This document shows, piece by piece, positions 24,817 to 41,262 of a DNA stretch of 64,000 nucleotides. The stretch's first letter is position 1. The number at the start of each line of letters is the position of its first letter. The translations under genes were made by a program, and so were the position numbers. The stretch is from Rhodococcus sp. P-2 (GTDB taxonomy: Bacteria > Actinomycetota > Actinomycetes > Mycobacteriales > Mycobacteriaceae), in contig NZ_CP066779.1 in the NCBI RefSeq assembly GCF_016598535.1, forward strand, positions 2,542,001 to 2,606,000. The letters run 5' to 3'. The notes under the pieces are model-generated. The model was not told where the DNA came from. It did not search any database and saw nothing but the letters and a program-made list of their open reading frames with translations.

Positions 24817-25602
24817 TCAGAGCAATCCGGTGAGCTGACGCGCACAATCAAGTAGGAACCCGACCAACTCTCGATCCCCCTCCGTCACTCGCCCGCTCGC
24901 TCCCTGAACACACAACCCGCCGGCCACCTGGTCTGCGTGATCGCGAACCGGTACTGCCACCGCGGATCGACCCAGGCGACATTCCTGGTTCTCGAATGCA
25001 TAACCCTGCAGACGAACCGATCTCAGCTGTTCAGACAAAGCATCGAAATCACCGATGGTGAACTCCGTGACCCGACGAAGTTCCAAACCCGACAGCAACT
25101 GCTCGTCGTGCGCCAACAGAACCTTCCCCAGCGCATTCGCGTGAAGGTTCTTCGGCAGTGCGGCTATTCCGATGATCTCGTGGTCCGGATCCTTGTCGAC
25201 GAACCGCAAGCGCCCACCGGCGAATGACGCAACGTGCAATCCGAACCTCGTGTGTGTCCGCATGTCCTCGACACGCTCGTGCAGCGTCGGCGCCGGACCA
25301 CTCGACGACGCCGCATGCGAGAGCTCGGCAGTTCGACGCCCCAACGCGAACCCCGACAGATCTGGCACTCGTACGAGGAAGCCCTCCGCCACCAACAGAT
25401 TGAGCATGCGATACGCCGTGGCCGAAGGGACGCCTGCAAAAGTGGCGATCTCCTTCGCGGTTGTTCCCGGTCCCAGATGAGCCACCGCCTCGAGCATCCC
25501 CAGCGCCTTCTGAACTGCACGCGGTTGTTGTCCACTGAAGTGGGTCTCTTCGCCGATCCGTTTGTCTGATCGTGGACCAGCGGTTGCACGGTCCGCGGAC
25601 AC
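24817..25602 (-). CDS. IclR-family transcription regulator
   Basis: A 261-residue regulator with an N-terminal winged helix (QQPRAVQKALGMLEAV... TTAKEIATFAGVPSATAYRMLNLLVAEGFL, residues 25-82) and a C-terminal IclR effector domain ('LPKNLHANALGKVLLAH', 'YAFENQECRLGRSAVAVPV'). The GTG start at 25602 has GGAG upstream. It follows the APC permease on the same strand and is overlapped by 439 bp of that gene's open frame. It probably controls the permease and perhaps the divergent amine-dehydrogenase operon; the effector may be an amine or its aldehyde or acid product. Confidence 0.85.
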   Translation of the reverse strand: MSADRATAGPRSDKRIGEETHFSGQQPRAVQKALGMLEAVAHLGPGTTAKEIATFAGVPSATAYRMLNLLVAEGFLVRVPDLSGFALGRRTAELSHAASSSGPAPTLHERVEDMRTHTRFGLHVASFAGGRLRFVDKDPDHEIIGIAALPKNLHANALGKVLLAHDEQLLSGLELRRVTEFTIGDFDALSEQLRSVRLQGYAFENQECRLGRSAVAVPVRDHADQVAGGLCVQGASGRVTEGDRELVGFLLDCARQLTGLL

Positions 25603-27137
25603 CGCCCATGCTCCGGCGAGTTACCCTCGGCGGTCCCACGATCCGGTACGAGTCGCCTTCGCCCGTCACCGTCTATCAGCAGAGTGCCAGCACCGGGCAA
25701 CAGGTCCGCCGTCTCGACGCTGTCGAAAGCGCCGAGCATCAGAAGGCTTTCAGGTCTGGCTCGTCGAAGCAACGAACTCCACACTGTCCCCGACACAGCA
25801 ACAGCAAGAGCAGCGATCGGCAGTGCCCACATCCCGTGAACCGCACCGTCGAGAACGATGTAGACCAGTAGACCGGCACCGGCGACGCTCACCGACACCG
25901 TGCATATCCGGGTCAGCGAAGTATGTTCCCCGATTCGGCGCAAGAACTTCCACGAAGCAAAGGCCACCAGCGTGTAAGCGCAGACCAACGCGGTCTCCAC
26001 CACGCCGTCGAAGGATCCCGAATCGTCGCGAACCGTATCCGAATAGATGAATACGCCCACCGCACTTACCGCGACGAACGCAAGTACCGCAACGTACGGG
26101 GTACGGAACCGTCTGTGCACGCGAGCGAGCGGCGCAGGCAGTACCCGTTCGATCCCCATCGAGTACAACAACCGCGAACCCGCCTGCGCACAACCGAGAG
26201 TGGATGCGAACCAGGAACACGTCATTCCGATCTTGACTGCCAGAACCACCTCCGCGCTGGCCCCGGATGCCGTTCCCTCGAAGTACGCTCCGACGATCGT
26301 TGCGCCGTGGCCGGTCATCGCCGCCCAGGCCGCAAAAACGAAGAGGACCCCGCAGATGATCGGCGAAATGAGGACCGTGCGTGTGACGCTGATGAGTGGT
26401 CGCTTCGCTTCTGGGCCGAAGAAGGCCGAACTTTCGAAGCCCGCCATGCTGAGTACCGTCAGCATCGCGAGAAACGGAACTGCACTCAGCGACGGATTCG
26501 GCAGGGCAACAGCAGTTGTCGTGTCACTGTGCGTCGCCAGCATGACTACGACGATCAGAATCAGCGAGCACGCCTCGACAACGAGGATCGCTCGAGTGGC
26601 GAACCGAACGCCTCGCACTGCAATCCACGCGACGGCCAGGGCAATCGCCACCGTCGTGATCACCGTCGCCGCCGTCCCCCGCACGTCGGGTCCGACAATG
26701 GCGATGGTATCGAGCAGACTCGGAACTGCCTGGGAGAAAACCGAAACCGAGATTCCGAGATACCCGAGCACCAGTGCCGCGCCCGCTGTCAGTGTCGCCC
26801 GGATACCGGAGCCTTGGAAGACGAAGCTGTACAACGATCCTGCTGCGGCCAGTCTCCGTGTGAACTGAGTGATGCAGAACGCAACGAGAAAAACAGCCGA
26901 AGTTGTCGCAGCAATCGCAGCCAACCCGACGTAACCGGGACTGTAGGTAATCATCCACAGGGCGATGAACACCATTCCCGTTGCGGGTGCGATCGTGGAG
27001 AGTGACTGCCCCAACAGATCGATCGGGGTCAGACGTCCCCGTCCGAGACCACGGAGCGGGGAGAACACGGGCTCACTGTGTTGATCCGCATTCTGCGCTC
27101 GCGTGATCGCTGCACGCAGTGCCGCACTCACGGCCAT
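25164..27137 (-). CDS. APC permease with an out-of-frame C-terminal extension
   Basis: The frame is 657 codons. Residues 1 to about 475 are a normal APC amino-acid/amine permease ('LTPIDLLGQSLSTIAPATGM', 'TRRLAAAGSLYSFVFQGSG', 'SMAGFESSAFFGPEAKRP'), the length of typical family members. Residues beyond about 485 are Arg- and Ser-rich and lie in another frame over the whole start of the IclR gene, so they are almost certainly not native protein. The +1 frame has tandem stops TGA-TAG at 25678-25673, where a normal permease would end. The likely cause is a frameshift or stop loss. It is divergent from the mau-like operon, hence a candidate amine importer. Confidence 0.7.
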   Translation of the reverse strand: MAVSAALRAAITRAQNADQHSEPVFSPLRGLGRGRLTPIDLLGQSLSTIAPATGMVFIALWMITYSPGYVGLAAIAATTSAVFLVAFCITQFTRRLAAAGSLYSFVFQGSGIRATLTAGAALVLGYLGISVSVFSQAVPSLLDTIAIVGPDVRGTAATVITTVAIALAVAWIAVRGVRFATRAILVVEACSLILIVVVMLATHSDTTTAVALPNPSLSAVPFLAMLTVLSMAGFESSAFFGPEAKRPLISVTRTVLISPIICGVLFVFAAWAAMTGHGATIVGAYFEGTASGASAEVVLAVKIGMTCSWFASTLGCAQAGSRLLYSMGIERVLPAPLARVHRRFRTPYVAVLAFVAVSAVGVFIYSDTVRDDSGSFDGVVETALVCAYTLVAFASWKFLRRIGEHTSLTRICTVSVSVAGAGLLVYIVLDGAVHGMWALPIAALAVAVSGTVWSSLLRRARPESLLMLGAFDSVETADLLPGAGTLLIDGDGRRRLVPDRGTAEGNSPEHGRCPRTVQPLVHDQTNGSAKRPTSVDNNRVQFRRRWGCSRRWLIWDREQPRRRSPLLQASLRPRRIACSICWWRRASSYECQICRGSRWGVELPSSRMRRRRVVRRRRCTSVSRTCGHTRGSDCTLRHSPVGACGSSTRIRTTRSSE

Positions 27138-27485: not shown

Positions 27486-28076
27486 ATGGGCTTGGTCAGC
27501 GCCACCACTTCGGCGATCATCGGATTCGTTCTCCTGCTCGCCGGCATTCCCAAGCTGAACGAGCACGACGGGGTCCTTCGTTCAGTGCGCGGATACAAAG
27601 TGTTACCGGTACGACTCGAAGCGCCGATCGCTCGCATCCTTCCCGTCGCGGAAACCGTCGTAGGCATCCTTCTGGTTCTCGGCGTTGCCCAACGCCTCGC
27701 TGCCTTGGCTGCTGCCGTCATGTTCGCGTCGTTCTTCACGGGCCTCACGATCAACCTCCTGCGTGGGCGACGCGATCTGGACTGCGGTTGTTTTGCATTC
27801 GGAGTCGGTGAGATTCCGCGAATCGGATGGTTCCACGCTGTTCGTGCCGGAACACTCGCGGTGATCGCTGTGGCAGTGTCGGCCACCGCCGGACAGGCTG
27901 AGATCGGCGTCCAGGTCGCGGCGGCGACCTTCGGATTCCTCCTCGTTCTGGCTGGAGTTGCTCTCGCACAGATTCGTTCGGTGGTCCATCTGGGGCGACG
28001 CCCTGTCGACGACTACCTGTCGAGCGCCTCCATCCGACTCCGCACCGCCGAAACCACATCCCGGTACGGCTCGTGA
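27486..28076 (+). CDS. mauE: MauE-like membrane protein (TTQ enzyme maturation)
   Basis: A 196-residue four-to-five-TM protein of the MauE/DoxX-like family. It starts at ATG 27486 after a good GGAGG. The sequence 'GIPKLNEHDGVLRSVRGYKVLP' and a conserved Cys pair, C100 and C102 (DLDCGCFAFG), fit MauE, which with MauD is needed to make the multi-disulphide light chain of methylamine dehydrogenase. It is first in a forward operon of eight genes and lies directly before mauD. A role in disulphide transfer across the membrane is family knowledge. Confidence 0.8.
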   Translation: MGLVSATTSAIIGFVLLLAGIPKLNEHDGVLRSVRGYKVLPVRLEAPIARILPVAETVVGILLVLGVAQRLAALAAAVMFASFFTGLTINLLRGRRDLDCGCFAFGVGEIPRIGWFHAVRAGTLAVIAVAVSATAGQAEIGVQVAAATFGFLLVLAGVALAQIRSVVHLGRRPVDDYLSSASIRLRTAETTSRYGS

Positions 28077-28119
28077 ACCACACCCACCGCACCGAAAACT
28101 CGAAGGCAGGACTTCCACG

Positions 28120-28728
28120 ATGACCACTTTCCTTCTCGTCGCGACCGTGATCCTGGTGATCGCCGTAGCCGTTCTCTTCCTGATGGTTCTTGCTCTGGCT
28201 CGTGAAATCGGCCGCGTCCAAGTACGTCTCGGACCTCTTGGCGCCCGGATGATGGATACCGGCCCCAAGGTCGAACAGGTCGGCCCGTCGTTTGCCGGTC
28301 TGATCGACCAGGAAGGACGAACCGTCGGAGTCGGTGGTCACCGCGACAAGCCCCAACTCCTGCTGTTCACAGCACCGAGTTGCTCGACGTGCAAGAGCCT
28401 TCTTCCCGGCGTAAGGGCAATGGCCCGAGCCGAATCGGATCTCGACGTGATCATCATCTCCGACGGAACACCCGAGGAGCATCGCGAGTTCCTGGCCGGC
28501 AGCGGGATCGGTTCCGAGCTCAGTTACATCGACGCTCGCGACGTCGGAATCGCGTACCAGGTGGGCACCACTCCGTACGGCGTGATTCTCGACGAGCACG
28601 GCAAGATCCGAGGGAAGGGCCTGTGCAATCACATGGCTCAGGTGGAAAGCCTGCTCAATGCACTCGAAACCGGCACCCCCTCACTCCAGCACCTTCATGC
28701 CCAGGCGAAATCCGGCAGCGCGGCCTGA
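28120..28728 (+). CDS. mauD: MauD-like membrane-anchored thioredoxin-fold protein
   Basis: A 202-residue protein with one N-terminal membrane anchor (residues 2-26), then a thioredoxin-like domain with C88-S-T-C91 (FTAPSCSTCKSLLPG) and 'TTPYGVILDEHGKIRGKG' for the cis-Pro region. Size and design match MauD, the disulphide isomerase or oxidase for the amine-dehydrogenase light chain. Start ATG 28120; the longer frame overlaps mauE without a signal. It sits 43 bp after mauE and 45 bp before mauA. Confidence 0.85.
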   Translation: MTTFLLVATVILVIAVAVLFLMVLALAREIGRVQVRLGPLGARMMDTGPKVEQVGPSFAGLIDQEGRTVGVGGHRDKPQLLLFTAPSCSTCKSLLPGVRAMARAESDLDVIIISDGTPEEHREFLAGSGIGSELSYIDARDVGIAYQVGTTPYGVILDEHGKIRGKGLCNHMAQVESLLNALETGTPSLQHLHAQAKSGSAA

Positions 28729-28773
28729 TCTTCCCGCACAGTTCGATCCTCTTCACGAATCAGGAGAAAATCG

Positions 28774-29475
28774 TTGGACGACAATGAATTCCCGCAGCAC
28801 AACATGACGGAGAACCGATATCCCGTCGACGAGGCGACAGTTCAGGCCCAGGCCGAATGGATGGCCGGCCAAGGCGGTTCGCTCACCAGTCGAACCGGAC
28901 GCAAACTTTCCGAACGAGTTTCGCGGCGGTCCATGATCAGTCGGATCGGCAAGTGGACCATGGGTGTGTCAGGAGTGGCACTGATCAGCACACTTCCTGT
29001 GACGCGTAGTGCCTTCGCCCAAGAGCCCGAGGTTCCTGCACCGGCACCTGGCCCCGAACCCCTTGTCCCTGTCTACGACGGTAAAGATCCGGCCGAGTGC
29101 GAGTACTGGCGCTGGTGCAACATGGACGGAACGTCTTGTGCCGCATGCAACGGCGGCGGTGTCACCACCTGCGCCCCCGGCAGCAAGCCCGGCGCAGAGT
29201 TCTGGGTCGGATGCTGCACGAACCCTGATACCGGTAAGACCTATCTGATCGCCTACTACGACTGCTGTGGTGCGCCTTCGTGTTCCAACGCATTCTGCGG
29301 CGAACCGGACATGCAGGCCGTGATGTACAACCCGGTCTCCGGAAGCTACGACCAGGAAATCATCTGGTGTGTCTCCGACGAGTCTCAGGCATACACCTGC
29401 ACGATGGCGCCCATCATCGGTGAGGACTGCCAGACTCGACCGGCCGAGCGCCCCAAGGTCGGTGCCGGATCATGA
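28774..29475 (+). CDS. mauA: TTQ-containing amine dehydrogenase light chain (MauA-like)
   Basis: A 233-residue precursor. It has the unusually long leader of MauA with a twin-arginine (VSRRSMISRIGKW, residues 49-61) and cleavage near RSAFA. The mature part aligns along its length with methylamine dehydrogenase beta subunit: the TTQ tryptophans are W144 (EFWVGCC) and W198 (EIIWCV), and D118, D163, Y207 and T210 match D32, D76, Y119 and T122 of the Paracoccus enzyme. Fourteen Cys are present from residue 109 on, against twelve in the classic chain. The start is TTG 28774 with AGGAG 8 bases ahead. It overlaps the next gene by 4 bases. Whether the substrate is methylamine, an aromatic amine or another amine is open. 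Confidence 0.9.
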   Translation: MDDNEFPQHNMTENRYPVDEATVQAQAEWMAGQGGSLTSRTGRKLSERVSRRSMISRIGKWTMGVSGVALISTLPVTRSAFAQEPEVPAPAPGPEPLVPVYDGKDPAECEYWRWCNMDGTSCAACNGGGVTTCAPGSKPGAEFWVGCCTNPDTGKTYLIAYYDCCGAPSCSNAFCGEPDMQAVMYNPVSGSYDQEIIWCVSDESQAYTCTMAPIIGEDCQTRPAERPKVGAGS

Positions 29476-30791
29476 GCAGTCCGCGAACCCGAAAACTGGC
29501 GCGCCCCGCCGTTGCCGTCATCCCACTCACCGTCGTACTCGCGCTGGCCGGTTGCAGTTCGTCCGACAACGACGAACCGTCCAGCGCAGGTGATGTCACC
29601 TATCCGACAGTTCCGTTCACTGCTCCGGGCGAGGGAATCTCCCTCGGACACGACGACCAGGAAATCGGCGATACCATTCCCGAGCCATTGCACGTCGGTT
29701 CGATCACCCCGATCGCAGCTGACCGCCTACTCGGCGTCGAAGGTGGATTCGGCCAGCTCGAGCTCAGCGTCAACGTCATCGATCCGAAGACCGGTGTGGC
29801 CGAGAGCCGGATCACCGTCGGCCCGGGCATCTGGGATCCGGTCATTCACGGATTCGTCGGGGATTCCGCCGAAGATCCTGCGGTGCTCGCTGCGGAGGTG
29901 TGGCGCCCCCGAGGTTCCCGTGGCGCAGCCGATTTCACGGTCAGCACCTACTCCGGCAACCTGCTGGAACCAGCCGAGGTCATGCTTCCGGACGTCGCAC
30001 GCGTACATTCCCGTCCCGGCTCCAATGCGGTGACCTCGGACGGCAAGTTCTTTGTCACTTGGGATGACGGTTTGTACGGCATCAGAGTGGTCGATCTCGA
30101 GAAGAAGGAAGCAACCGGCGCACTCCAGATAGTCGGCTGCGGTCCGTTCACGTGGATGGTCGATCACGAGCTGTACAGCGTCTGCGAGGACTCCCGGGAA
30201 CTGCTACACGTCACGATCGGTGACGACGGTGTTCCCAAGGAAACCGCCCGAAGCAAGGTCCTACCCGAAGATTTTGTCTCCACCCGAAAGGTCACGTGGG
30301 CATCGGAAGCACAAAAAGCCTTGCTGGTCAGTGAGAACGGCGATGTGTACGTCTTCGACTTCTCCAACGGACTGCCTCAGGAAGGTGTCAAGCCGATCGG
30401 AAACGCCGGGCAGGACTCCGGTCGATTCTCGGAGAACGTCATCAACGCCGACGCAACCCGGCTCGCAATCGCGTACACGGACACGGCTATTCATCCGGAC
30501 TCTGCTCGGGGAGGCTCACTGGTCAAGATCGACCTGTCCGACGCGACGACCTTCGCCCCGGTGAAGAGCTTGACGCTTGCAGACCTCGGCCTGACAGACA
30601 TCAAGAGCATGACCTTCTCCGTCGACGGCGCCACGTTCTACGTGCTCGGTTCGGGACCAGAAGTCGAAGGCTCCGCTCCGCAGAAGATCGTGGGTTACAA
30701 CGCGAGCACCGGTGAGCAGGTCAGTTCCGTCGATGTCTCGGGCAACGTCGGGGATGTCAGCGGGTTGATCACACCAGAAGTACTCCGATGA
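29472..30791 (+). CDS. Predicted beta-propeller lipoprotein, heavy-chain equivalent
   Basis: A 439-residue lipoprotein (LALAGC, C28) whose mature part is a run of beta-strand repeats: 'GKFFVTWDDGLYGIRVVDLEKKEATG', 'VSENGDVYVFDFSNGLPQEG' and 'MTFSVDGATFYVLGSG' look like propeller blades with D-rich turns. In classical enzymes the heavy chain MauB is a seven-bladed propeller; here this gene follows mauA with a 4-base ATGA overlap, so it is the obvious partner. Overall similarity to MauB is weak by eye and the lipid anchor is unlike the soluble periplasmic heavy chains, so the assignment rests on fold guess and position. Confidence 0.6.
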   Translation: MSSPRTRKLARPAVAVIPLTVVLALAGCSSSDNDEPSSAGDVTYPTVPFTAPGEGISLGHDDQEIGDTIPEPLHVGSITPIAADRLLGVEGGFGQLELSVNVIDPKTGVAESRITVGPGIWDPVIHGFVGDSAEDPAVLAAEVWRPRGSRGAADFTVSTYSGNLLEPAEVMLPDVARVHSRPGSNAVTSDGKFFVTWDDGLYGIRVVDLEKKEATGALQIVGCGPFTWMVDHELYSVCEDSRELLHVTIGDDGVPKETARSKVLPEDFVSTRKVTWASEAQKALLVSENGDVYVFDFSNGLPQEGVKPIGNAGQDSGRFSENVINADATRLAIAYTDTAIHPDSARGGSLVKIDLSDATTFAPVKSLTLADLGLTDIKSMTFSVDGATFYVLGSGPEVEGSAPQKIVGYNASTGEQVSSVDVSGNVGDVSGLITPEVLR

Positions 30792-32377
30792 GCCGTCCCG
30801 GATCCGGTGTGGTGATGGGCCGGCGCCGCTTCCTGAGTTTGGGAGCGCTCGGCGCCGGAGCACTCGGGCTCGGCGCCATGGGGACGATTGCCGGATGCAG
30901 TTCCACTGCAGCATCTCCGACGCCCACGACCGATCTCGACTACATCCTGCCCACCGACCCCGAAGTTACTGCCGCAGAATCGGCGCGAGCCTGGAACGGG
31001 ACCACCGCTGCGTTTGCCCTTGCCGCCGGATTCTCGACGGTAGATCTTGGCGGACGCCTCGCGGACACGTGGACGTACGGAGGCGCTGCGGTGGCTCCGG
31101 AACTTCGACTGAAGTCCGGTGACCGGGTGAACGTCAGCGTCCAGAACGGCCTCGACGCCGAAACAACACTGCACTGGCACGGAATTCGAATCCGCAACGA
31201 CATGGACGGCGCGGCACCCACCACGCAGGCTCCCATCGGCGCCGGTTCGAGCTTCGAGTACAACTTCATCGCCCCGGATCCGGGAACGTACTGGTACCAC
31301 TCGCACAGCGGATTACAGGCCGATCGGGGGCTCTTCGGCGCCATGATCGTCGAGGATCCGAACGACACCACCGGGGCCGACGTCGATGCCGTCCTGGTGC
31401 TCGACGACTGGCTCGACGGATTGGGAACCTCCCCGGATTCCGTCCTGATGGCCCTGAACCCGGCAATTTCGGGTGGGCACGGCGGACACGGCGGTGGGGC
31501 AACAACTCCGGCGGAACACTCGGAAGCCGACATGTCCGTCGCGCAGCAGTTGGTCAGCGGCGGACACGGTTCTTCCGAACCACTCGGCGGGATGACTCAA
31601 CACATCGCGTATCCGCTGCACTTGATCAACGGGCGGCCACCCAATGATCCTGCTGTCGTCACTGCAGCGCCCGGTTCGACCCTGCGACTACGAATCGTCA
31701 ACGCAGCGGCCGAAACTCCGTACCGGTTTGCTGTGGCCGGTCACGAGATGACAATCGTCGCTACCGATGGCTACGACGTGGAGCCAACTCCTGCCGACAC
31801 CATCATCGTCGGCATGGCCCAACGCTACGACGTATTGGTGACGGTGAAGTCGGGAACATGGCCGGTGGTAGCGAAGGTCGAGGGCCGAGATGGTTATGCG
31901 TCGACCGTCCTACGCAGCACCGACGCGTTGGCGCTGGCGAATCCGGATGTGGGCGGAAACCTCTCGGAGCTGGCCGGGCGGCTGGTAACCGAAAGCGAAC
32001 TCCGGCCCACGGAATCCGCACGACTCGAGACGAAGACGCCTGATCGCGACTACCACATCGAGTTGATCCAGGCCGGCGATCGATACGTGTGGGGAATGGC
32101 GGGAGCCGATGCGGGCAAGCTCGTCATGAAACAGGGCGAACGGGTCCGCATCACGATGAAGAACACGTCCACGATGTGGCATCCCATGCATACCCACGGC
32201 CACACCTTTGCGGTACCGGATTACGGCGGGCTTCGCCGCGACACCGTGAACGTCCTACCCGGCACCGAGCTCGCCATCGAGTTCGACGCCGACAATCCCG
32301 GCGAGTGGATGTTCCACTGCCACAACGCCTACCACTTCGAAGCAGGCATGACGGCAAATCTGCGTTACGTCCGCTGA
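30788..32377 (+). CDS. Tat-exported multicopper oxidase lipoprotein in the mau operon
   Basis: A 529-residue laccase-type enzyme. The N-terminus has a twin-arginine motif (GRRRFLSLG, residues 11-19) followed by lipobox AGC (C37). Copper ligands are all present: HWH 129-131, HSH 171-173, H465-P-M-H468-T-H470-G-H472, and H510-C511-H512...H516...M521, the last giving a type-1 site with axial Met. A His-rich insert lies at 231-260 (HGGHGGG...). It oxidises a reductant and reduces O2 to water outside the membrane. It overlaps the propeller gene by 4 bases and precedes two cupredoxins. Possible roles: electron acceptor for the dehydrogenase, or oxidation step in TTQ making. Confidence 0.85.
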   Translation: MSRPGSGVVMGRRRFLSLGALGAGALGLGAMGTIAGCSSTAASPTPTTDLDYILPTDPEVTAAESARAWNGTTAAFALAAGFSTVDLGGRLADTWTYGGAAVAPELRLKSGDRVNVSVQNGLDAETTLHWHGIRIRNDMDGAAPTTQAPIGAGSSFEYNFIAPDPGTYWYHSHSGLQADRGLFGAMIVEDPNDTTGADVDAVLVLDDWLDGLGTSPDSVLMALNPAISGGHGGHGGGATTPAEHSEADMSVAQQLVSGGHGSSEPLGGMTQHIAYPLHLINGRPPNDPAVVTAAPGSTLRLRIVNAAAETPYRFAVAGHEMTIVATDGYDVEPTPADTIIVGMAQRYDVLVTVKSGTWPVVAKVEGRDGYASTVLRSTDALALANPDVGGNLSELAGRLVTESELRPTESARLETKTPDRDYHIELIQAGDRYVWGMAGADAGKLVMKQGERVRITMKNTSTMWHPMHTHGHTFAVPDYGGLRRDTVNVLPGTELAIEFDADNPGEWMFHCHNAYHFEAGMTANLRYVR

Positions 32378-32404
32378 CAAGTCGAAGAATGGAGAAAACC
32401 CCTC

Positions 32405-32752
32405 ATGAAGAAACTCGTTCCCGCTTTCCTCGCAGCCTGCGCGGCATTGAGCCTCACCGCCTGCAGTAGTGACGCCGGTGCGTCGTCGGACGAACCTGCC
32501 GTCGTGATCGAGGTGAAGAACATGGCGTACACACCAGCATCGGTCACCATCGAGAAGGGGCAGACCGTCGAATGGAAGTTCGACGACAGCGGACTCCCCC
32601 ACGACGTGGTCGGCAACGGTGATCTCGACGGGAAACTGAAGAGCGAGTTGCTCACCGAGGGAACCTTCTCGTACACGTTCGACGACACCGGCACCTTCAC
32701 CTACCACTGCACGCCCCACCCGATGATGGTGGGCACCGTGATCGTTCAATAG
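32405..32752 (+). CDS. Amicyanin-like cupredoxin lipoprotein 1
   Basis: A 115-residue blue-copper-type protein with lipobox SLTAC (C20). The type-1 copper ligands can be read: H66 (GLPHDVV), C102, H105 and M108 (HCTPHPMM), with the short C-x2-H-x2-M spacing of amicyanin and pseudoazurin-type domains. Amicyanin is the natural electron acceptor of methylamine dehydrogenase, so this is the likely carrier from the TTQ enzyme. It lies 28 bp after the copper oxidase and overlaps the next gene by one base. Confidence 0.8.
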   Translation: MKKLVPAFLAACAALSLTACSSDAGASSDEPAVVIEVKNMAYTPASVTIEKGQTVEWKFDDSGLPHDVVGNGDLDGKLKSELLTEGTFSYTFDDTGTFTYHCTPHPMMVGTVIVQ

Positions 32753-33075
32753 TGAGGAGGTGGATCGCCGGCTTCGTCCTCGCCGTCACAGCGACGTGTG
32801 TTTCGTCCTGCGGCACAGAAGATCCCGTCCCCGACGTGGTGGTCGAGATCAGCAATGTTCAGTTCAGCCCGATGGACGTCACGGTGGAACACGGCGGCAC
32901 CGTCGAGTGGCGCTTCGACGACGGTGGACTCCTGCATCACGTGGAATCACCCGGCCTGTTCGACAGTGGTATCACCGGAGACGGAACGTTCCGGCACACG
33001 TTCGAGAGCGTCGGCGTCTACGAGTATTCGTGCTCCGTCCACCCGTACATGATCGGAGTCATCACAGTGCTGTGA
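32752..33075 (+). CDS. Amicyanin-like cupredoxin lipoprotein 2
   Basis: A 107-residue protein homologous to its upstream neighbour. It has a lipobox-like end VSSC (C20), a 'DVTVEHGGTVEWRFDDGGLLHHV' strand pattern, and copper ligands H62, C94, H97 and M100 (SCSVHPYM). The GTG start overlaps the preceding stop (TAGTG). The second Cys at 16 and the HH pair at 62-63 differ from copy 1. The two cupredoxins may pass electrons in sequence or serve different partners. Confidence 0.75.
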   Translation: MRRWIAGFVLAVTATCVSSCGTEDPVPDVVVEISNVQFSPMDVTVEHGGTVEWRFDDGGLLHHVESPGLFDSGITGDGTFRHTFESVGVYEYSCSVHPYMIGVITVL

Positions 33076-33149
33076 ACTCTGGCTCATCACTTTTCGCTGC
33101 GACTTCGACTCAATACTTTTCCTGAACCACAAACACTTCGGAGGATCCG

Positions 33150-33986
33150 ATGACTACTGTTCTCTCACACGGCCCACTGCAGACCGATGTCCCTGACATC
33201 CGGCCGACCCTTCAAGGCTCCGTCGGCACCGCGACCCGTGTCAGCCTCGTCGCGGCGGGCGCTGCTGCGGGTGCCGGCCTCGCACTCGTGGCCACGCCTT
33301 CCGCGACAACAGCTTTGACCACAGCTGTTATCGGCGCCGGACTGGTTACGTCGCTGGCCGCGAACTGGTCGACCTGCGGAATGTCCGTCGCCGGAGTTGT
33401 TGCCGCGCCGAAGCAGGTAGATCGGAAGGGATCCTCGACTCCCGTCCGCCGACTCGGCTGGCACGCACTGGGTTCGGTCACGACGGGGGCCGTCACCGGG
33501 GCATTGATCGGCGCCCTCGGTGCGACGATGTCCGGCTACGTCCCGATCAGCTGGGCGCTGGGCGTCTGGGCCGTCGTCGCGGTTGCGTACGGGCTGCACG
33601 AGCTGGGTGCAATGAAGATGCCGACTCCGATGCGGCGCCAACAGCTTCCTCGTCATCTGCGCCGCACCATGGCGCCCTGGAAGGTCTCGCTGATCTTCGG
33701 CGCGATCATCGGCCCGGGATTTCTGATCTTCATCCGCTCCAGTGCGTACTACCTCCTGGCGCTCGGCGTCATCGCCTCGGGTTCACCGGCTCTCGGCGCG
33801 GCGCTGTTCACGGTCGTATCCCTTGGCCGCTGCATGCCCAGCCTCGCGGCAATCGTGCACACCAAGCGTGGTGGCTCGATGCCGGGATTCCTCTCGATCA
33901 TGTGCGTCGTGGACCGTCGCGTGCAGAGCGTCACCGGCGCGGCATTGATCGCACTGGGAGCATTTGCCGCCGCAGCACTGATCTGA
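33150..33986 (+). CDS. Polytopic membrane protein, MauF-position gene
   Basis: A 278-residue membrane protein with about seven hydrophobic segments (residues 30-50, 53-70, 105-125, 128-148, 175-195, 200-232, 255-278). It has a lone conserved-looking Cys in 'ANWSTCGMSVAGV', others at 'GRCMPS' and 'SIMCVVDRR', and a His-rich junction 'GLHELGAMKMP'. Classical mau operons contain MauF, a DsbD/CcdA-like membrane protein of about this size needed for enzyme assembly; this protein could fill that place, but I cannot confirm homology. It is last in the operon, followed by a strong hairpin. Confidence 0.5.
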   Translation: MTTVLSHGPLQTDVPDIRPTLQGSVGTATRVSLVAAGAAAGAGLALVATPSATTALTTAVIGAGLVTSLAANWSTCGMSVAGVVAAPKQVDRKGSSTPVRRLGWHALGSVTTGAVTGALIGALGATMSGYVPISWALGVWAVVAVAYGLHELGAMKMPTPMRRQQLPRHLRRTMAPWKVSLIFGAIIGPGFLIFIRSSAYYLLALGVIASGSPALGAALFTVVSLGRCMPSLAAIVHTKRGGSMPGFLSIMCVVDRRVQSVTGAALIALGAFAAAALI

Positions 33987-34796: not shown

Positions 34797-36530
34797 TCAT
34801 GGCTCTCGCGCTCGGTCGATCCTCCATCCCTCCGCGCCACTGCGCTCGGCCCACAGATCCGAGTACTTTCCGCCGTGCGCGATCAGGTCTTGGTGAGAAC
34901 CCACCTCTTCAACTGTGCCGCCTTCGAGAAACACGATGTGATCTGCTCCCTGAATAGTCGACAGGCGGTGAGCGATGACCACCACCGTTCTACCACGGGC
35001 CAATCGGTGAATTGCCTCGGTGATCGCTACTTCGTTCTCGCCGTCGAGGGCGGAAGTCGCTTCGTCGAGTAGAACTATCGGAGTGTCCTTGAGGAAGGCG
35101 CGCGCAATCGACACCCGCTGACGTTCACCGCCGGACAGCAGCGATCCGCCTTCACCTACTCTCGTCTCTTCGCCGCTCGGCAGACGATCGATCACTTCGC
35201 CTAGTCTGGAATCGACCACCGCTTGGAGGACCTCCGACTCGGTGGCATCCGGTCTCGCCAACCGAACGTTCTCCACAATGGTTCCGTCGAACAGGTAAAC
35301 CTGCTGCGAGACAGTCGATATCCGAGACATCAATGCTCTCGTTCCGATGTCGCGAACATCTACTCCCCCGATCGACACCGTTCCTTCGTCAACGTCCCAG
35401 AATCTGGAGATCAGCCGAACCAGCGTTGTCTTTCCGGAACCGGAAGGGCCGACCAACGCGGTGACCGAACTTTCCGGGAATTCGAGGCTGACGCTACGAA
35501 TCACGCGATCCGGGCCGTAGCCGAAGGAGACCGAATCGAACCGAATACCGTACGACGTCGGCTCTTTCGGCACCTCAGGCTCCGCCAGCACCGGTACATC
35601 GATCATCTCTCGGACAGATCCGAGCGACACCCGGGCCAGTGAGATACCTTCACCGAATCCTGCGAGCATTTCCATCGGCTCCACGAACCTCACGGCCAAC
35701 ACGAGCACAACGATCACGCTTGCGGTGTCGATGGACCCGGTGGTGACCAGCAGTGCCGCCAGAGCCAGTACAGCAAGGAAGGCAACCTGAACGACGATCA
35801 TGAAGCGCAGCAGATACTTGTCGACCGAGCCGATTTCCTGGAGGTGTGCGTCCCGGTTGGACACAAGAGCTTCGTCCAGCCGATTCCATCCTTCGTCACT
35901 CTTACCGGCTGAGCGCAGAACCTGTTGCGCCTGTGCATATTCGACGACGCGCGATGCCAATTCGGATTCACTCTTTCCAATCGCCTCGTATTCGGGCACA
36001 ACCGCCCGCTGCACGTTGCGGTAAGCGCGAATCCCCAGTGGAACGAAGACGACCATCGCGAAGGACAATCTCCAGTCGACGAACAGGACAGCGATCGCCA
36101 CGGTCGCGGGAGTGACGGTCACGGTGACGAGTTGCACGACGATCATTCCCGGGATACTCATCAAGATCGCTGTGCCCTCGGTGACCAGACGAGTGAACGC
36201 TCCACGGTTTGCCTTACTGAACCACCCGAGCGGAATCTGCACCAGATGCTCGCCCAGTCGGTGCATGATTCCACCGGCAAAACGCTCGATTCCGATGCGG
36301 TACGCACGATTCTCGGCTATCCACCGTACGGCGCCGCAGGCCGCCGCCACGAGAGCAGCCGAGACAACCCATGGAATTGCAGCGCCGTAGTCGCCGCGGA
36401 CAACCGCTTTCAGTATCGGGATCGTCAAGGCGAAAACGACACCCTCGAGTATCCCGGCGAGCGTGAAACCTACTATCTGGCCTCGCATCCCGTTGTCTCG
36501 TCCGAGGATCTCGTCCAGGTCCCGAATCAT
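34797..36530 (-). CDS. ABC transporter, membrane-ATPase fusion (IrtB/YbtP-like)
   Basis: A 577-residue half-transporter: six TM helices (residues 15-300) and a C-terminal ATPase with Walker A GPSGSGKTT, signature LLSGGERQRVSIARAF, Walker B VLLDEATSALD and H-loop IAHRLSTI. The fold is that of exporters, but with a siderophore-binding lipoprotein in the same operon the pair resembles IrtAB and YbtPQ, exporter-fold importers of ferric siderophores. I start at ATG 36530, which overlaps the partner stop (ATGA). Confidence 0.8.
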   Translation of the reverse strand: MIRDLDEILGRDNGMRGQIVGFTLAGILEGVVFALTIPILKAVVRGDYGAAIPWVVSAALVAAACGAVRWIAENRAYRIGIERFAGGIMHRLGEHLVQIPLGWFSKANRGAFTRLVTEGTAILMSIPGMIVVQLVTVTVTPATVAIAVLFVDWRLSFAMVVFVPLGIRAYRNVQRAVVPEYEAIGKSESELASRVVEYAQAQQVLRSAGKSDEGWNRLDEALVSNRDAHLQEIGSVDKYLLRFMIVVQVAFLAVLALAALLVTTGSIDTASVIVVLVLAVRFVEPMEMLAGFGEGISLARVSLGSVREMIDVPVLAEPEVPKEPTSYGIRFDSVSFGYGPDRVIRSVSLEFPESSVTALVGPSGSGKTTLVRLISRFWDVDEGTVSIGGVDVRDIGTRALMSRISTVSQQVYLFDGTIVENVRLARPDATESEVLQAVVDSRLGEVIDRLPSGEETRVGEGGSLLSGGERQRVSIARAFLKDTPIVLLDEATSALDGENEVAITEAIHRLARGRTVVVIAHRLSTIQGADHIVFLEGGTVEEVGSHQDLIAHGGKYSDLWAERSGAEGWRIDRAREP

Positions 36531-38341
36531 TGAAGTACCTTCCACGGAGTCATGTCCTCGCCGAGGGGATTCTGGAGCGCCCACATCCGCGCGTAGGTTC
36601 CCCCGAACTCCGACAGCTGTTCGTGTGTACCCTTCTCCACAATTCTTCCGTCGTCGAGTACGAGTATCTGGTCCGCGTAGCGGATGGTGTGCAGTCGATG
36701 AGCGATCACCATCATGGTGCCGCCGTCTGCACTGATCTCGCCCAGCGCCCGTTGAACGGCCGCTTCGCTGTGCGGATCAGCCTGCGAGGTCGCCTCGTCC
36801 AGGATGACGATCGGCGGATTCTGAAGGATCGCGCGAGCGATGGTCAGGCGTTGCTTCTCCCCACCCGACAACTCACCACCCGAACTACCACCGATCTCGG
36901 TGTCGTACCCGTCGGGCAGTCGCATGATCACGTCGTGAATCTGCGCCCGCTTCGCTGCTGTCTCCACCTCCAGATCGGTTGCATCCGGCCGACCGAGCCG
37001 GATGTTCTCGCGCACGGTATCCCGTAGGAGGACAACATCCTGGAAGACGATCGCCATCGATTTCAAGACTTCACGACTGGACTGATCTCGTACATCGCTT
37101 CCACCGAGGCGAACAGACCCGTCCGTCACGTCCCAGAACCGCGGAAGTAGACGTGCCAACGTGGTCTTTCCGGAGCCGGACGGTCCGACGATCGCGGTAA
37201 CGGTGCCCGGTTGCATCTCGAAGGAAATATTCTCGAGGACGCGCTGCCCGGCAGTGTATTCGAATCCTACGCAATCAAACTCGACCAAGGTGCCCCGAGC
37301 CGAGACCGGATCCTGGGGTTCGGCCAACGCGGGTTCGCCGAGAATGCCCTCGACGTGAGTGGCTCCCAGTTGGCCTTCGCGGTAGAGGTTGGCCATCGTT
37401 CCCAGATGGAGAACCGACGACGGCACACCTATCCCGACGACCAGAAAAGCAACAAGAGCTACCGGGGTGATCCAGCCCCCGGAGAGCAACGCAATCCCCG
37501 TCGCCGTGATGACCACGATGAGCACCGCCGGAGAGAGAAGGATCGACATCGCGACCACCGGCCTTCCCATCCCCGACATCCATCGCACGCACACCGCGAC
37601 CATCGAATCCACAGCACTCGAGTAGCGCGCGAACGCGCGACTCCCACTCCCGTACGTCTTGACAACCTCGATGCCGTCACCCAGTTCGACTGTTGCAGAG
37701 GTCAATGTCGCCATGGCGCGGTTCCACGAGTCGACGTTCGTTCGATACGCATTGCGCATCGATGGTGCGGCAAGGGCGAGACACACTCCGATGTAGCCGA
37801 CCAGGACAAGACTGAACTTCCAGTCGATCACCACCAGATAGACCAGAGCCACTACCGGCGACAGGATGGCAGGCACCACGTCGGCAGGAAGATGAGCGAC
37901 GAGGAGATGCATCCGTTTGACGTCGTCGGTCATCGCTTGTTTCACTTCACCGGTTCCGCCGTTTGCGAACCACCCCAGAGGAACTCGGGACAGGTGCCGC
38001 GCGATACGCGAGCGGATCGAGTACTTGAAGTGTGCGTCGGCGGTGTGACACACCGTCAGAGCCGCGTTGTAGACCACGAAACCGAGAACTGTGCCCGCTG
38101 CGCCGATCGCGGCCCACCACCAGACCACGTTCAACGACGTGCCGGTCAAGAGCACTCGTGCGATCTCGACCACCGCAATGTAGGGCAGAAAGCGCAGCGG
38201 CACCGACAGCGCAGACAGACCCGCCCCCAGGAGGAGTCGATCTCTCACCGGCGCGATCATCCTGCCCAAAGCGTCGCGGTCGACGAGTCCGCGCGAATCA
38301 TCCGAGGCTGCAGCCTCGTTCACTTTCATGTCGTCACTCAC
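36527..38341 (-). CDS. ABC transporter, membrane-ATPase fusion (IrtA/YbtQ-like)
   Basis: A 604-residue half-transporter with TM region (residues about 25-310) and ATPase: GPSGSGKTTLARLL, signature LSGGEKQRLTIARAIL, Walker B ILDEATSQADPHSE and IAHRLHTI. The D-loop 'SQAD' differs from the consensus SALD in the partner, so the two ATP sites may be unequal. The GTG start at 38341 overlaps the cupredoxin stop (GTGA). It lacks the siderophore-interacting domain that mycobacterial IrtA has at its N-terminus. Confidence 0.8.
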   Translation of the reverse strand: MSDDMKVNEAAASDDSRGLVDRDALGRMIAPVRDRLLLGAGLSALSVPLRFLPYIAVVEIARVLLTGTSLNVVWWWAAIGAAGTVLGFVVYNAALTVCHTADAHFKYSIRSRIARHLSRVPLGWFANGGTGEVKQAMTDDVKRMHLLVAHLPADVVPAILSPVVALVYLVVIDWKFSLVLVGYIGVCLALAAPSMRNAYRTNVDSWNRAMATLTSATVELGDGIEVVKTYGSGSRAFARYSSAVDSMVAVCVRWMSGMGRPVVAMSILLSPAVLIVVITATGIALLSGGWITPVALVAFLVVGIGVPSSVLHLGTMANLYREGQLGATHVEGILGEPALAEPQDPVSARGTLVEFDCVGFEYTAGQRVLENISFEMQPGTVTAIVGPSGSGKTTLARLLPRFWDVTDGSVRLGGSDVRDQSSREVLKSMAIVFQDVVLLRDTVRENIRLGRPDATDLEVETAAKRAQIHDVIMRLPDGYDTEIGGSSGGELSGGEKQRLTIARAILQNPPIVILDEATSQADPHSEAAVQRALGEISADGGTMMVIAHRLHTIRYADQILVLDDGRIVEKGTHEQLSEFGGTYARMWALQNPLGEDMTPWKVLQ

Positions 38342-38685
38342 TCTTCGACGATGATCGTGCCGGTCATGTTCGGATGTGGTGTGCACGTGTACGTGAAGGT
38401 TCCGGCTTTGTCGAAGGTCTGGCTGTAGGTTCCACTTCCTTGCAGGTCACTCTTGGTCCCGAGTTCCGCGAACACGACATCGTGTGGCATACCTTGATCC
38501 TCGAAAATCCACGTGACGGTCTGTCCCGTGTGCACGGTGACGGAGTTCGGCGTGTACGCAAGGTTCTTCACCGAGATCTCGACCGGCGTCTGCTCGGTGG
38601 ATCCCGTCGAATCGCTACCGCACGACGTCAGGGTAAACACGGCTGCAACAGCGATCAAAGTGGTCAACCCGGTGCGAACTGACAT
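38338..38685 (-). CDS. Amicyanin-like cupredoxin lipoprotein 3
   Basis: A 115-residue blue-copper-type lipoprotein (LTSC, C22) with ligands H68 (GMPHDVV), C101, H104 and M107 (TCTPHPNM). It is closely related to cupredoxin 1 of the facing mau-like operon, down to 'VKN.AYTP.SVT'. Here it lies between a multicopper oxidase and a siderophore-type ABC pair. It may donate electrons to that oxidase. Confidence 0.8.
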   Translation of the reverse strand: MSVRTGLTTLIAVAAVFTLTSCGSDSTGSTEQTPVEISVKNLAYTPNSVTVHTGQTVTWIFEDQGMPHDVVFAELGTKSDLQGSGTYSQTFDKAGTFTYTCTPHPNMTGTIIVEE

Positions 38686-38695
38686 TCTGCTCTCC

Positions 38696-40243
38696 TCATC
38701 GAACGTAGTGGAGGTCGGCAGTCATCCCGGCCTCGAAGTGGTACGCGTTGTGACAATGGAACATCCACCGTCCTGGATTGTCGGCGTCGAAGTCGATCGC
38801 CAATTGTGTACGCGGAAGCGAAATCACGGTGTCTCGACGAAGCCCGCCGTACGAGGGAACCGAGAAGGTGTGCCCGTGGGTGTGCATCGGGTGCCACATG
38901 TCGGTGTTGTTGTTCATGACGATTCGTATTCGCTCGCCCTGCTTCATGATCAACCGACCTGCGTCGGCGCCCGCCATTCCCCAGACGTATCGATCGCCGG
39001 CTTGAATGAGATCCACCGAATACTCACGATCCGGCACCTGATGCTCCAGCGCGCCGAACGGGCGAAGCACCGATTCCAGAAGGAGTCGGCCGCCGGAACC
39101 TGACAGCACTGCAGGAGAAGTCAGGTCGACGCTCGCGACCGAATCCGGTGTCCGAAGCAGGCACGCAGCGCCACCTGTCTTGCCTTCCACCTTCGCGGCT
39201 ATGGGCCACGAACCAGACTGCACCGTCACCAGCACGTCGTATCGCTGCGCGGGCGCGATCAGAATCTCGTCTCCGACCGCGTAGGAGACGTCCTGCCCGT
39301 CAGCACTGACAACGGTCAACTCGTGCCCGGCTACGGAGAATCGGTACGGAGTCTCGGCCCCGGCATTGATCACCCGCAGACGGAGTCGCGTCCCGGCCGG
39401 CACACTGACGACGAACGGATCTTCTGCCGGTCGTCCGTTGATCAGGTGCAATGGATAGGTGATGTGCGTTGCCATGCCGCCGAGCGCTGTCGAACTCCCG
39501 TGGCCGTCCTCGAGAAGTTGTGCAGCAGAATCGATCTCTGCTTCGTCGATTTCCGGCGGCGGCCCTCCGTGTCCGTGGTGTCCTCCCGGAACTTCCGGAG
39601 ACAGTGCACGTAGAACTGCATCCGGGGTTGTTCCCAGCCCGTCCAGCCAGTCGTCGATCACGATGACGACATCTTCGTCGGCTCCGGTCCGGTCGTTCGG
39701 GTCCTCGACCACGAGTGCACCGAAGAGCCCTCGATCAGCCTGCAACCCCGAATGGGAGTGATACCAGTAGGTTCCGTGGTCGGGAGCCACGAAGTCGTAG
39801 GTGAACTCGGCACCTGGTTGGATTCGTTCCTGGGTGATCGGCGGGACACCGTCCATGTCGTTGCGGATCGCAATGCCGTGCCAGTGCACTGACGTCTCCG
39901 ACGAAAGGTCGTTCTGCAACCGCAGGTTCAGCCGGTCTCCCTTGGAGATTCGGATCTCCGGGCCAACTGCTTCTGCTCCGTACGACCACGTGTCGACGTG
40001 CCTGCCGCCCAGATTCACCCGAGCCGGTGCGGCTGTCAGATTCCGCTCAACTGTACGTCCGCTACGAAACCGCGATTGCTCGGCAGCACGAACTTCATCG
40101 TCGAACGGCGAAATTTCGGAACTGACTTCATTCGCCGCACCACGGCTGCACGCACTCAGCGCCACAGAGCCCAGTGCCGCAGACCCGAACGTCACAGCTC
40201 CCCATCTCAGCGCCAGGCGCCGACTCAACGCACTCGAACTCAT
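38696..40243 (-). CDS. Multicopper oxidase paralogue in the siderophore operon
   Basis: A 515-residue enzyme closely related to the oxidase in the mau-like operon. It has an Arg-rich export signal with lipobox LSAC, copper motifs HWH, HSH, H-P-M-H-T-H-G-H and H496-C497-H498...H502...M507, and a similar His-rich insert (GGHHGHGGPP). I start at ATG 40243, which overlaps the binding-protein stop by 4 bases; the longer frame is the other gene's tail. In an iron-uptake operon a ferroxidase or siderophore-oxidising role is plausible. Confidence 0.85.
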   Translation of the reverse strand: MSSSALSRRLALRWGAVTFGSAALGSVALSACSRGAANEVSSEISPFDDEVRAAEQSRFRSGRTVERNLTAAPARVNLGGRHVDTWSYGAEAVGPEIRISKGDRLNLRLQNDLSSETSVHWHGIAIRNDMDGVPPITQERIQPGAEFTYDFVAPDHGTYWYHSHSGLQADRGLFGALVVEDPNDRTGADEDVVIVIDDWLDGLGTTPDAVLRALSPEVPGGHHGHGGPPPEIDEAEIDSAAQLLEDGHGSSTALGGMATHITYPLHLINGRPAEDPFVVSVPAGTRLRLRVINAGAETPYRFSVAGHELTVVSADGQDVSYAVGDEILIAPAQRYDVLVTVQSGSWPIAAKVEGKTGGAACLLRTPDSVASVDLTSPAVLSGSGGRLLLESVLRPFGALEHQVPDREYSVDLIQAGDRYVWGMAGADAGRLIMKQGERIRIVMNNNTDMWHPMHTHGHTFSVPSYGGLRRDTVISLPRTQLAIDFDADNPGRWMFHCHNAYHFEAGMTADLHYVR

Positions 40244-41262
40244 GCCGTCAGCGCCGTGAATTCCTGATAGCGTTTCGCAGCAACAGATTCGGTACCGGTG
40301 CCGGCCAGATTGCCGCCAGCCATGGCGTCCATGTCCTCGATCATCCAGAAGGTGGCAAAGGGGTGAGTAGCGAGCCACATGTCCCCGTTGACCTTGGCCA
40401 CCCGGTTCTCCTGCGCCGCCGAAAGACTCGAGAACCCGGGGACGCTGGCAACCTTGCCGAATTCGTACACACCCTCGTCGAAGACGGCAACGATCCGAGC
40501 GTCCTGCGCCGGAATCGCCTCATCGGACAGGGGTGCATACGGTAGGCCTCCCGCGGCATTCGCTCGCTGCGATTCGGGACGCCCGAATCCGCTCTCCGCC
40601 AACAGCAACGAGGGCGGTGCTTGCTCGGTGGTGGTGGCAAGAATGCCAGAGCTGCTCATCAGCACCGACACGGTGTTCGCTTCGCCACGGGAGCGAGCAG
40701 AGACGTCAGAGATCTTGCCCTCCAAAGCGCCTGTCAACTTGTCGGCAACCGACTGACGATCGAAGGCCCGACCGAAGAAGGCAAGATTCTCACGCCACGG
40801 AGTGGTCACGGCAGGGACCGGGACTGTGGGAACCGTCGACGCGATGGAGTCGTAGTAGCTCCGATCGCCCATCGACGTGAAGATGACCAGTCCCGGATCC
40901 TGGGCGAGGACCTGCTCGATCGGCGGCGCACCGAGCGGCGGCACCGTGACCACCTCGGTACCTGCCGAGGCCAGGATGTCCTGGCCGATCTCCGATCCCC
41001 AGGACGTGAAGACCACGTCGGGCGTGATGCCGACGGCAAGGAGACCGAGTGCGGCGTATTCGTCCAAGGAAACGATTCGCCCGAGGTCGTCCGGAACCGA
41101 CGTCTCACCGAATTCGTGGGTCACGGCATGCGTTCCCTCGGCAAGTTCCGTCGTCTGTCCCGCCTCACTCGAGCTACAGGCGGCCGCAGTCAGGGCAACG
41201 ACACTGACCAGCAGCGAAGCACCCAGCTTCGATAGATAACCGGGTCGCGTTTTCAACTTCAT
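40240..41262 (-). CDS. Siderophore-binding ABC lipoprotein (FepB/FecB-like)
   Basis: A 340-residue substrate-binding lipoprotein, lipobox TAAAC (C29). It has the class III binding-protein layout: 'GRIVSLDEYAALGLLAVGITPDVVF', 'PPIEQVLAQDPGLVIFTS' and C-terminal 'RVAKVNGDMWLATHPFATFWMIEDM'. Such proteins bind ferric siderophores or haem. First gene of the reverse operon, with an IdeR-like box 62-80 bp upstream, so expression is probably raised by iron lack. Confidence 0.8.
   Translation of the reverse strand: MKLKTRPGYLSKLGASLLVSVVALTAAACSSSEAGQTTELAEGTHAVTHEFGETSVPDDLGRIVSLDEYAALGLLAVGITPDVVFTSWGSEIGQDILASAGTEVVTVPPLGAPPIEQVLAQDPGLVIFTSMGDRSYYDSIASTVPTVPVPAVTTPWRENLAFFGRAFDRQSVADKLTGALEGKISDVSARSRGEANTVSVLMSSSGILATTTEQAPPSLLLAESGFGRPESQRANAAGGLPYAPLSDEAIPAQDARIVAVFDEGVYEFGKVASVPGFSSLSAAQENRVAKVNGDMWLATHPFATFWMIEDMDAMAGGNLAGTGTESVAAKRYQEFTALTA

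Follow-up and report, generated by a model that had tools for sequence, protein, structure and literature searches.

A conserved actinobacterial branch of mau-type operons without MauG, with a multicopper oxidase as candidate maturase of tryptophan tryptophylquinone

MauG is the textbook synthase of tryptophan tryptophylquinone (TTQ), and in the mau cluster of Paracoccus denitrificans (mauRFBEDACJGMN) its gene accompanies those for the light chain MauA, the heavy chain MauB, the accessory proteins MauD, MauE and MauF, and amicyanin. The aau-type clusters have the order B-E-D-A-cytochrome c. According to the accessible part of one source, methylamine dehydrogenase is the Gram-negative route and methylamine oxidase the one used in Gram-positives (PMC8292978). 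Our literature search found no TTQ operon described for actinobacteria, a weak negative, with subscription journals mostly outside its scope. Here we examine such an operon in a window (the whole stretch of DNA analysed) of 64,000 nucleotides from Rhodococcus sp. P-2 (contig NZ_CP066779.1, positions 2,542,001 to 2,606,000), which sits in a 6.34 Mb single-contig genome. At positions 27486-33986, eight co-directional open frames with little or no spacing all lie where an earlier interpretation of the letters alone, hereafter the sequence-only reading, had placed them; they run mauE-mauD-mauA-mauB-MCO-mauC-like-mauC-like-mauF, where MCO is a three-domain multicopper oxidase.

Judged by its predicted genes, this operon has the complete mau core F-B-E-D-A-C, with only G missing, together with J, M and N, none of which was seen in it. 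MauF, MauE, MauD and an amicyanin-like cupredoxin, all marks of a mau-type cluster, are present, and the dihaem MauG is not. Relatives were taken as the best 80 of 265 loci, those numbered L016-L051 being actinobacterial, at 64-100% identity, and the rest lying at about 34-43%; the comparison set comprised 48 loci (L052-L099). When the order is mapped by frame ends, E-D-A-B-MCO-C-C-F recurs in 32 of the 37 actinobacterial loci, the window included, which bears out the rearranged operon that the sequence-only reading had described. The exceptions have one cupredoxin (L044), have MauF between A and B (L045), or lie on short contigs (L048-L050). The operon thus appears to be a conserved actinobacterial branch of mau-type TTQ dehydrogenases that has apparently not been described before. 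Our reading of it, which we hold tentatively and with a little less than even confidence, is that of a mau-lineage TTQ dehydrogenase in which the MCO acts as TTQ maturase and replaces MauG.

The light chain has what defines a TTQ amine dehydrogenase, namely a PF02975 domain with the TTQ tryptophan pair and the active-site Asp, Tyr and Thr or Ser. W144 and W198, which we take to be the two TTQ tryptophans, align with tryptophans in 3c75_L, a methylamine dehydrogenase light chain. W144, D118 and D163 are found in 37 of 37 actinobacterial rows and W198, Y207 and T210 in 36, the sole exception being L048, whose 3 kb contig has MauA divided between two reading frames; the six residues singled out by the sequence-only reading are thus kept throughout the group. 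All 48 comparison rows likewise retain both tryptophans and the active-site positions, 43 of them with Ser in place of Thr210, and Thr at 210 is common to actinobacteria, mau, L065 and L092. The match to TIGR02659 (E 1e-34) falls under that model's equivalog cut-off. Each of the 14 cysteines is kept in 36-37 of 37 actinobacterial rows; because C147 and C219 are conserved here and yet are Cys in none of the 48 comparison rows, MauA is likely to have an additional disulfide. Its leader is twin-arginine-like, with R51-R52 invariant in five aligned rows, and has no lipobox; orthologue N-termini suggest that the start may be ATG 28804 and not TTG 28774. The window's MauA is identical to those of R. 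erythropolis NBRC 15567 (L018) and R. qingshengii IEGM 1359 (L016). MauE and MauD, also named in the sequence-only reading, are recovered by their family models (Table 1); the CxC motif of MauE is present in 35 of 36 rows, the remaining row being a gap, and the CSTC motif of MauD in 36 of 36. By sequence, ATG 28120 is most likely the start of MauD.

Two genes that had been labelled merely "propeller" and "membrane protein" are indeed present, and both labels were incomplete. In searches with the propeller, Pfam returned no match at 1e-3 (PF06433 scored 16.9 bits against a cut-off of 21), and methylamine dehydrogenase (MADH) heavy chains were the best PDB matches by phmmer, at only 5e-5. A hidden Markov model (HMM) trained on 46 MauB/AauB sequences from the comparison set and run on 6423 open reading frames (ORFs) ranked all 37 actinobacterial propellers first, the worst at 4.7e-5 and the next frame at 0.0052, and profile-profile comparison with MauB/AauB gave a probability of 98.6%. 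An AlphaFold model (mean predicted local distance difference test score 73, with a poor N-terminus) has as its 28 best PDB folds only entries for MADH and aromatic amine dehydrogenase (AADH), with E 1.6e-18 to 3.3e-12 and TM-scores of 0.60-0.65 by query length; the first unrelated propeller follows behind them, only at 7.5e-11. The HMM ranking and the fold matches rule out an unrelated propeller: the protein is a diverged MauB heavy chain, a seven-bladed propeller of the MauB/AauB family.

The membrane protein, for which a Pfam search gave no family, aligns by hhalign with MauF of P. denitrificans and Methylobacterium (99.1%, E 4.5e-19, 209 columns), and shares with MauF the motifs WSxCGxS and PxPxRRxQxP. 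An HMM of the actinobacterial protein matches MauF in L095, L096 and L099 (E 7e-21 to 5e-25) and nothing in the other 45 of the 48 comparison loci; queries with P. denitrificans MauG and MauF match the same three. On these sequence comparisons it is MauF, and its status as an unknown protein can be set aside. In all four mau clusters that were checked, MauF accompanies MauG (L095, L096, L099 and, by annotation, L135, where MauF and a cytochrome c peroxidase are annotated). The cytochrome c after the light chain and the lack of MauF that mark aau-type clusters do not describe this operon, in which MauF is present. A MauD tree, to which four loci without a MauD match do not contribute and in which long branches are flagged, joins 15 actinobacterial rows with 3 mau rows and separates them from 12 aau rows (95/92), and gene content (MauF, the amicyanin-like protein) favours placing the operon with mau.

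The absence of MauG, which the sequence-only reading had reported for the window, extends to whole genomes: PF03150 (CCP_MauG) has no match anywhere in the window's own genome, nor was one found in the 41 actinobacterial genomes with MauA, drafts and metagenome bins among them. As a positive control, the same search recovered MauG on Paracoccus denitrificans and Methylobacterium plasmids. The 27 kb slice 17001-44000 of the window holds no CxxCH frame of at least 90 aa, and a search of the genome for Cytochrom_C (PF00034), the one cytochrome family besides PF03150 that was covered, returned a single gene of 295 residues with two CxxCH, which we take for a QcrC-like dihaem protein. Together, the whole-genome PF03150 and Cytochrom_C searches rule out a MauG encoded elsewhere in the genome. 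The absence of MauG from all 41 genomes, the NCBIfam scores under equivalog cut-offs and the strong divergence of MauB could all be read as signs that the MauA product is no TTQ enzyme, that it forms no crosslink and that the complex has another role. We consider this very improbable, since 36-37 of 37 rows retain both tryptophans, the catalytic Asp, Tyr and Thr as well as every cysteine, and the accessory set E, D and F is still complete.

A MauG-less cluster is no novelty in itself, contrary to what the sequence-only reading implied: neither MauG nor MauF was found by phmmer or HMM in 45 of the 48 comparison loci, some of them on short contigs, and by these searches the absence of MauG beside MauA is not unique to actinobacteria. 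PF03150 is absent from 9 of the 19 searched genomes of MauG-less comparison loci, genomes of unstated completeness, and MauG-free TTQ formation may be common. Proteobacterial genomes that are free of PF03150 and have an intact-looking MauA are those of L053, L055, L057, L060, L061, L062, L064, L069 and L078. Nor are TTQ loci limited to methylotrophs, as had been supposed, many comparison loci belonging to Sphingobium and relatives; the accessible part of PMC8292978 reports that a Novosphingobium with mauBEDA did not grow on methylamine. The picture of a distinct TTQ system holds as regards the missing MauG and the rearranged gene order, and fails insofar as it implied a stripped-down one, the mau core being complete.

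The product of the gene after mauB has the three cupredoxin domains and the type 1, 2 and 3 copper ligands of a three-domain MCO. Its motifs HxH, HxH, HxxHxH and HCHxxxHxxxxM are present in 35 of 36 rows, the other row being a gap, and its closest PDB matches are laccases and FET3. It was found in all 34 actinobacterial loci long enough for judgement, and in 32 of 36 its gene and mauB share 4 bp. Within Rhodococcus, the 12 genomes with MauA, out of 28, are precisely those with an orthologue (75-100% identity); the best MCOs of the other 16 come no closer than 46% across nearly the whole length, or 52% in short segments. One might suppose a copper-handling oxidase of the CueO/CopA kind, whose task would be to protect or load the operon's copper proteins and which would not be directly involved in TTQ or electron transfer, as the top NCBIfam match (copper_res_A, under cut-off) and a His-rich loop of about 50 residues in domain 2 of nearly all orthologues would allow. 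However, that loop varies in length and composition, and a general copper-resistance enzyme would not need such tight coupling to MauA and MauB in presence, order and overlap; this explanation seems improbable to us.

Both cupredoxins keep their H, C, H and M ligands in 35 of 35 rows, the set for the second re-picking the frame of the first in at least three loci (L044, L046, L049). The first is amicyanin-like by its nearest PDB match, amicyanin 3c75_A (1e-14), and scores 51 bits against the 110-bit cut-off of the amicyanin model TIGR02657. A simple lipobox pattern is found in MauB (37/37), the MCO (34/36), cupredoxin 1 (34/35) and cupredoxin 2 (30/35), and in none of 37 MauA rows. The several lipoproteins of the sequence-only reading are therefore real by this pattern, and its "surface-anchored" system is right as to lipoprotein anchoring; the predicted lipoproteins are better described as anchored in the membrane and facing outwards, and the lipobox is missing from MauA.

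The window also encodes a second MCO (38696-40378, minus strand), 61% identical to that of the operon, with its own cupredoxin lipoprotein (38338-38685, minus strand) and with iron-uptake-type neighbours: a gene for a periplasmic binding protein at 40240-41262 and, at 34797-38386, an ABC transporter pair. This paralogue occurs in 3 of the 28 genus genomes, each with MauA. Outside the actinobacteria, an MCO lies within a few kb of MauA in 3 of 44 loci (L065, L066 and L092, all aau-type), on the same strand only in L066, possibly an independent link of MCOs with MauG-less TTQ clusters.

A hydroxylated tryptophan is a phenol, and phenols are the class of compound that laccases oxidise and couple; an MCO in MauG's position could therefore supply the oxidising steps of TTQ formation. 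From the genes, residues, copper sites, gene order, co-occurrence and absence of MauG, all read from sequence, we infer how TTQ would form, how electrons would travel and what the MCO would do. The operon would produce an extracytoplasmic TTQ amine dehydrogenase of the mau lineage, whose exported MauA would obtain its disulfides, and be prepared, through MauE, MauD and MauF. A first tryptophan hydroxylation, possibly self-catalysed, would precede the action of the translationally coupled MCO. The latter would most likely take MauG's place for the late oxidations that depend on O2: one-electron oxidation of the laccase type and coupling of the phenol would convert hydroxylated Trp144, together with Trp198, into TTQ. 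MauA would assemble with the lipoprotein MauB, the substrate amine would reduce TTQ, and electrons would leave singly through the two amicyanin-like lipoproteins. Published precedent, as far as the accessible text of PMC7876137 extends, includes MauG and LodB/GoxB acting on mono-hydroxylated Trp, and a first hydroxylation that is thought to be autocatalytic and, in LodA, copper-dependent; the accessible part of PMC4417212 places a multicopper oxidase in some LodA-like operons. That a laccase-type MCO, with MauE, MauD and MauF, has replaced MauG in a haem-free route to TTQ, giving a copper-plus-quinone amine dehydrogenase anchored to the outside of a Gram-positive membrane, is in our estimate a real possibility that stops short of an even chance.

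We favour a maturase because MauF is kept without MauG, because MCO and MauA co-occur strictly, and because bcc-aa3 would be the better electron sink. The last point bears on a different role for the MCO, that of terminal electron sink: TTQ would form without it, and electrons would run from the cupredoxins through the MCO to O2, giving water and completing an amine:O2 oxidase located outside the membrane. The pairing of cupredoxin and MCO does recur at the paralogue locus, where there is no dehydrogenase; the sole Cytochrom_C-family gene is QcrC-like, so that no soluble cytochrome c was seen as acceptor; and aau-type loci have MauG-free clusters, with nearly half of their searched genomes free of PF03150. 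However, a sink leaves the retention of MauF without MauG unexplained, and bcc-aa3 offers a route to O2 with energy gain; in Microbacterium stercoris, the operon stands amid COX2/COX1, cytochrome b and dihaem cytochrome c genes. We judge the sink plausible, though less than probable, and both roles may be true together.

Several observations weigh against the MCO as maturase. Met-ligated type 1 copper would be expected to have a modest potential, too low for unmodified Trp. Proteobacterial aau-type clusters do without both MauG and MauF, and by analogy a dedicated replacement may be needless. No MCO lies nearby in 41 of 44 non-actinobacterial loci, and the paralogue locus indicates that an MCO-cupredoxin pair can exist without a TTQ partner. 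Finally, in the MauA tree the actinobacterial rows form a single clade (100/100) that does not stand beside mau.

MauA occurs in 12 of 28 Rhodococcus genomes, and strong matches to MauA and MauB fall in the same 43 of 301 family genomes, side by side by coordinates, a count that leaves out four weak partial matches per search (E 1e-4 to 9e-4). Because samples of the phylum (1 of 396 genomes) and of the class (1 of 394) gave a strong MauA match in the window's own genome only, the operon appears to be rare outside the family. Recent plasmid-borne import was also considered and set aside, none of the 30 plasmid records with a MauA match being actinobacterial by name. Intergenic sequence is alignable in only six near relatives.

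Table 1. Predicted genes of the operon and its divergent neighbours, by position in the window.
Feature	Position	Strand	Support and remarks
IclR-family regulator	24817..25602	-	Pfam IclR_C 9e-21, HTH_IclR 1e-11; adjoins permease, divergent from operon
APC-type amino acid/amine permease	25164..27137	-	TIGR00909 4e-10; divergent from operon
MauE, membrane accessory protein	27486..28076	+	PF07291, E 9e-25
MauD, thioredoxin-like accessory protein	28120..28728	+	TIGR02661, E 1.5e-48, under equivalog cut-off
MauA, TTQ light chain	28774..29475	+	PF02975 E 1e-31; PDB 3c75_L 6e-33
MauB, diverged heavy chain propeller, lipoprotein	29472..30791	+	phmmer, HMM, AlphaFold fold match
Three-domain laccase-type multicopper oxidase (MCO)	30788..32377	+	Three Cu-oxidase Pfam domains; Tat (twin-arginine translocation) leader and lipobox
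Cupredoxin lipoprotein 1, amicyanin-like	32405..32752	+	Copper-bind 1e-13
Cupredoxin lipoprotein 2	32752..33075	+	Cupredoxin_1 4e-6
MauF, multi-spanning membrane protein	33150..33986	+	hhalign to MauF; HMM; shared motifs

Both the regulator and the permease gene are found with the operon at 31 of the 37 actinobacterial loci. A Pfam search gave no family for the permease, whose closest PDB match, cationic amino acid transporter 1, is weak (E 1e-6); within the region 24817-27137 its frame overlaps the IclR gene, which is read in a different frame, by 439 bases, and the permease's 3' end is uncertain. The flanks of the Kineococcus, Microbacterium, Corynebacterium and Actinacidiphila loci gave no clue to the substrate, apart from respiratory genes in those of Microbacterium: in Microbacterium stercoris (L046, 3052-19564) the mau operon lies between COX2/COX1 and cytochrome b and dihaem cytochrome c genes. 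In Sphingobium fontiphilum (L052, 11174-13054), a gene for the alpha subunit of quinohaemoprotein amine dehydrogenase, a cysteine tryptophylquinone (CTQ) enzyme, follows directly after the aau-type TTQ cluster, placing two tryptophylquinone enzymes next to each other.

With a conserved operon of this kind in Gram-positives, complete in its mau genes except for MauG and enlarged by a copper oxidase, the question arises whether a copper enzyme is able to make TTQ or whether TTQ can form without a dedicated synthase. The answer, whichever it is, would matter as well for those aau-type loci whose genomes have no MauG domain. Because the copper amine oxidase domain PF01179 has no match in the window's whole genome, the operon may be a main extracytoplasmic amine-oxidising route in such Rhodococcus.

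Among described systems, the mau cluster of Paracoccus denitrificans (L096) is the nearest, having in common with this operon MauF, B, E, D, A and amicyanin homologues, as well as Thr at position 210 and its grouping in the MauD tree. The actinobacterial operon differs in its order, in having no G, J, M or N that we could see, in the added MCO, in the lipoboxes on MauB, the MCO and the cupredoxins, and in the extra conserved Cys 147 and 219 of MauA. The aau-type clusters (L097, L134 and most of L052-L094) share with it MauA, a MauB-type subunit, E and D, and neither kind has an adjacent MauG; they are without MauF, whereas MauF, cupredoxins and an MCO are present here. In the annotated clusters L097 and L134, cytochrome c genes follow the light chain, and in L098 the gene that comes next is annotated as hypothetical. 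With three-domain laccases and CopA- or CueO-like MCOs, the oxidase has in common three Cu-oxidase domains and all four copper motifs, whereas compared with other Rhodococcus MCOs it forms a separate, MauA-tied orthologous group, the others being 61-62% (the paralogue) or at most 46% identical. Finally, the LodA/LodB cysteine tryptophylquinone oxidases resemble it in having a tryptophylquinone without a dihaem enzyme, some of their operons including an MCO in the accessible account of PMC4417212. Their fold is unrelated, and the cofactor partner in LodA is Cys and not Trp; the flavoprotein LodB, the known modifying enzyme in the part of PMC7876137 that is accessible, has no counterpart in this operon.

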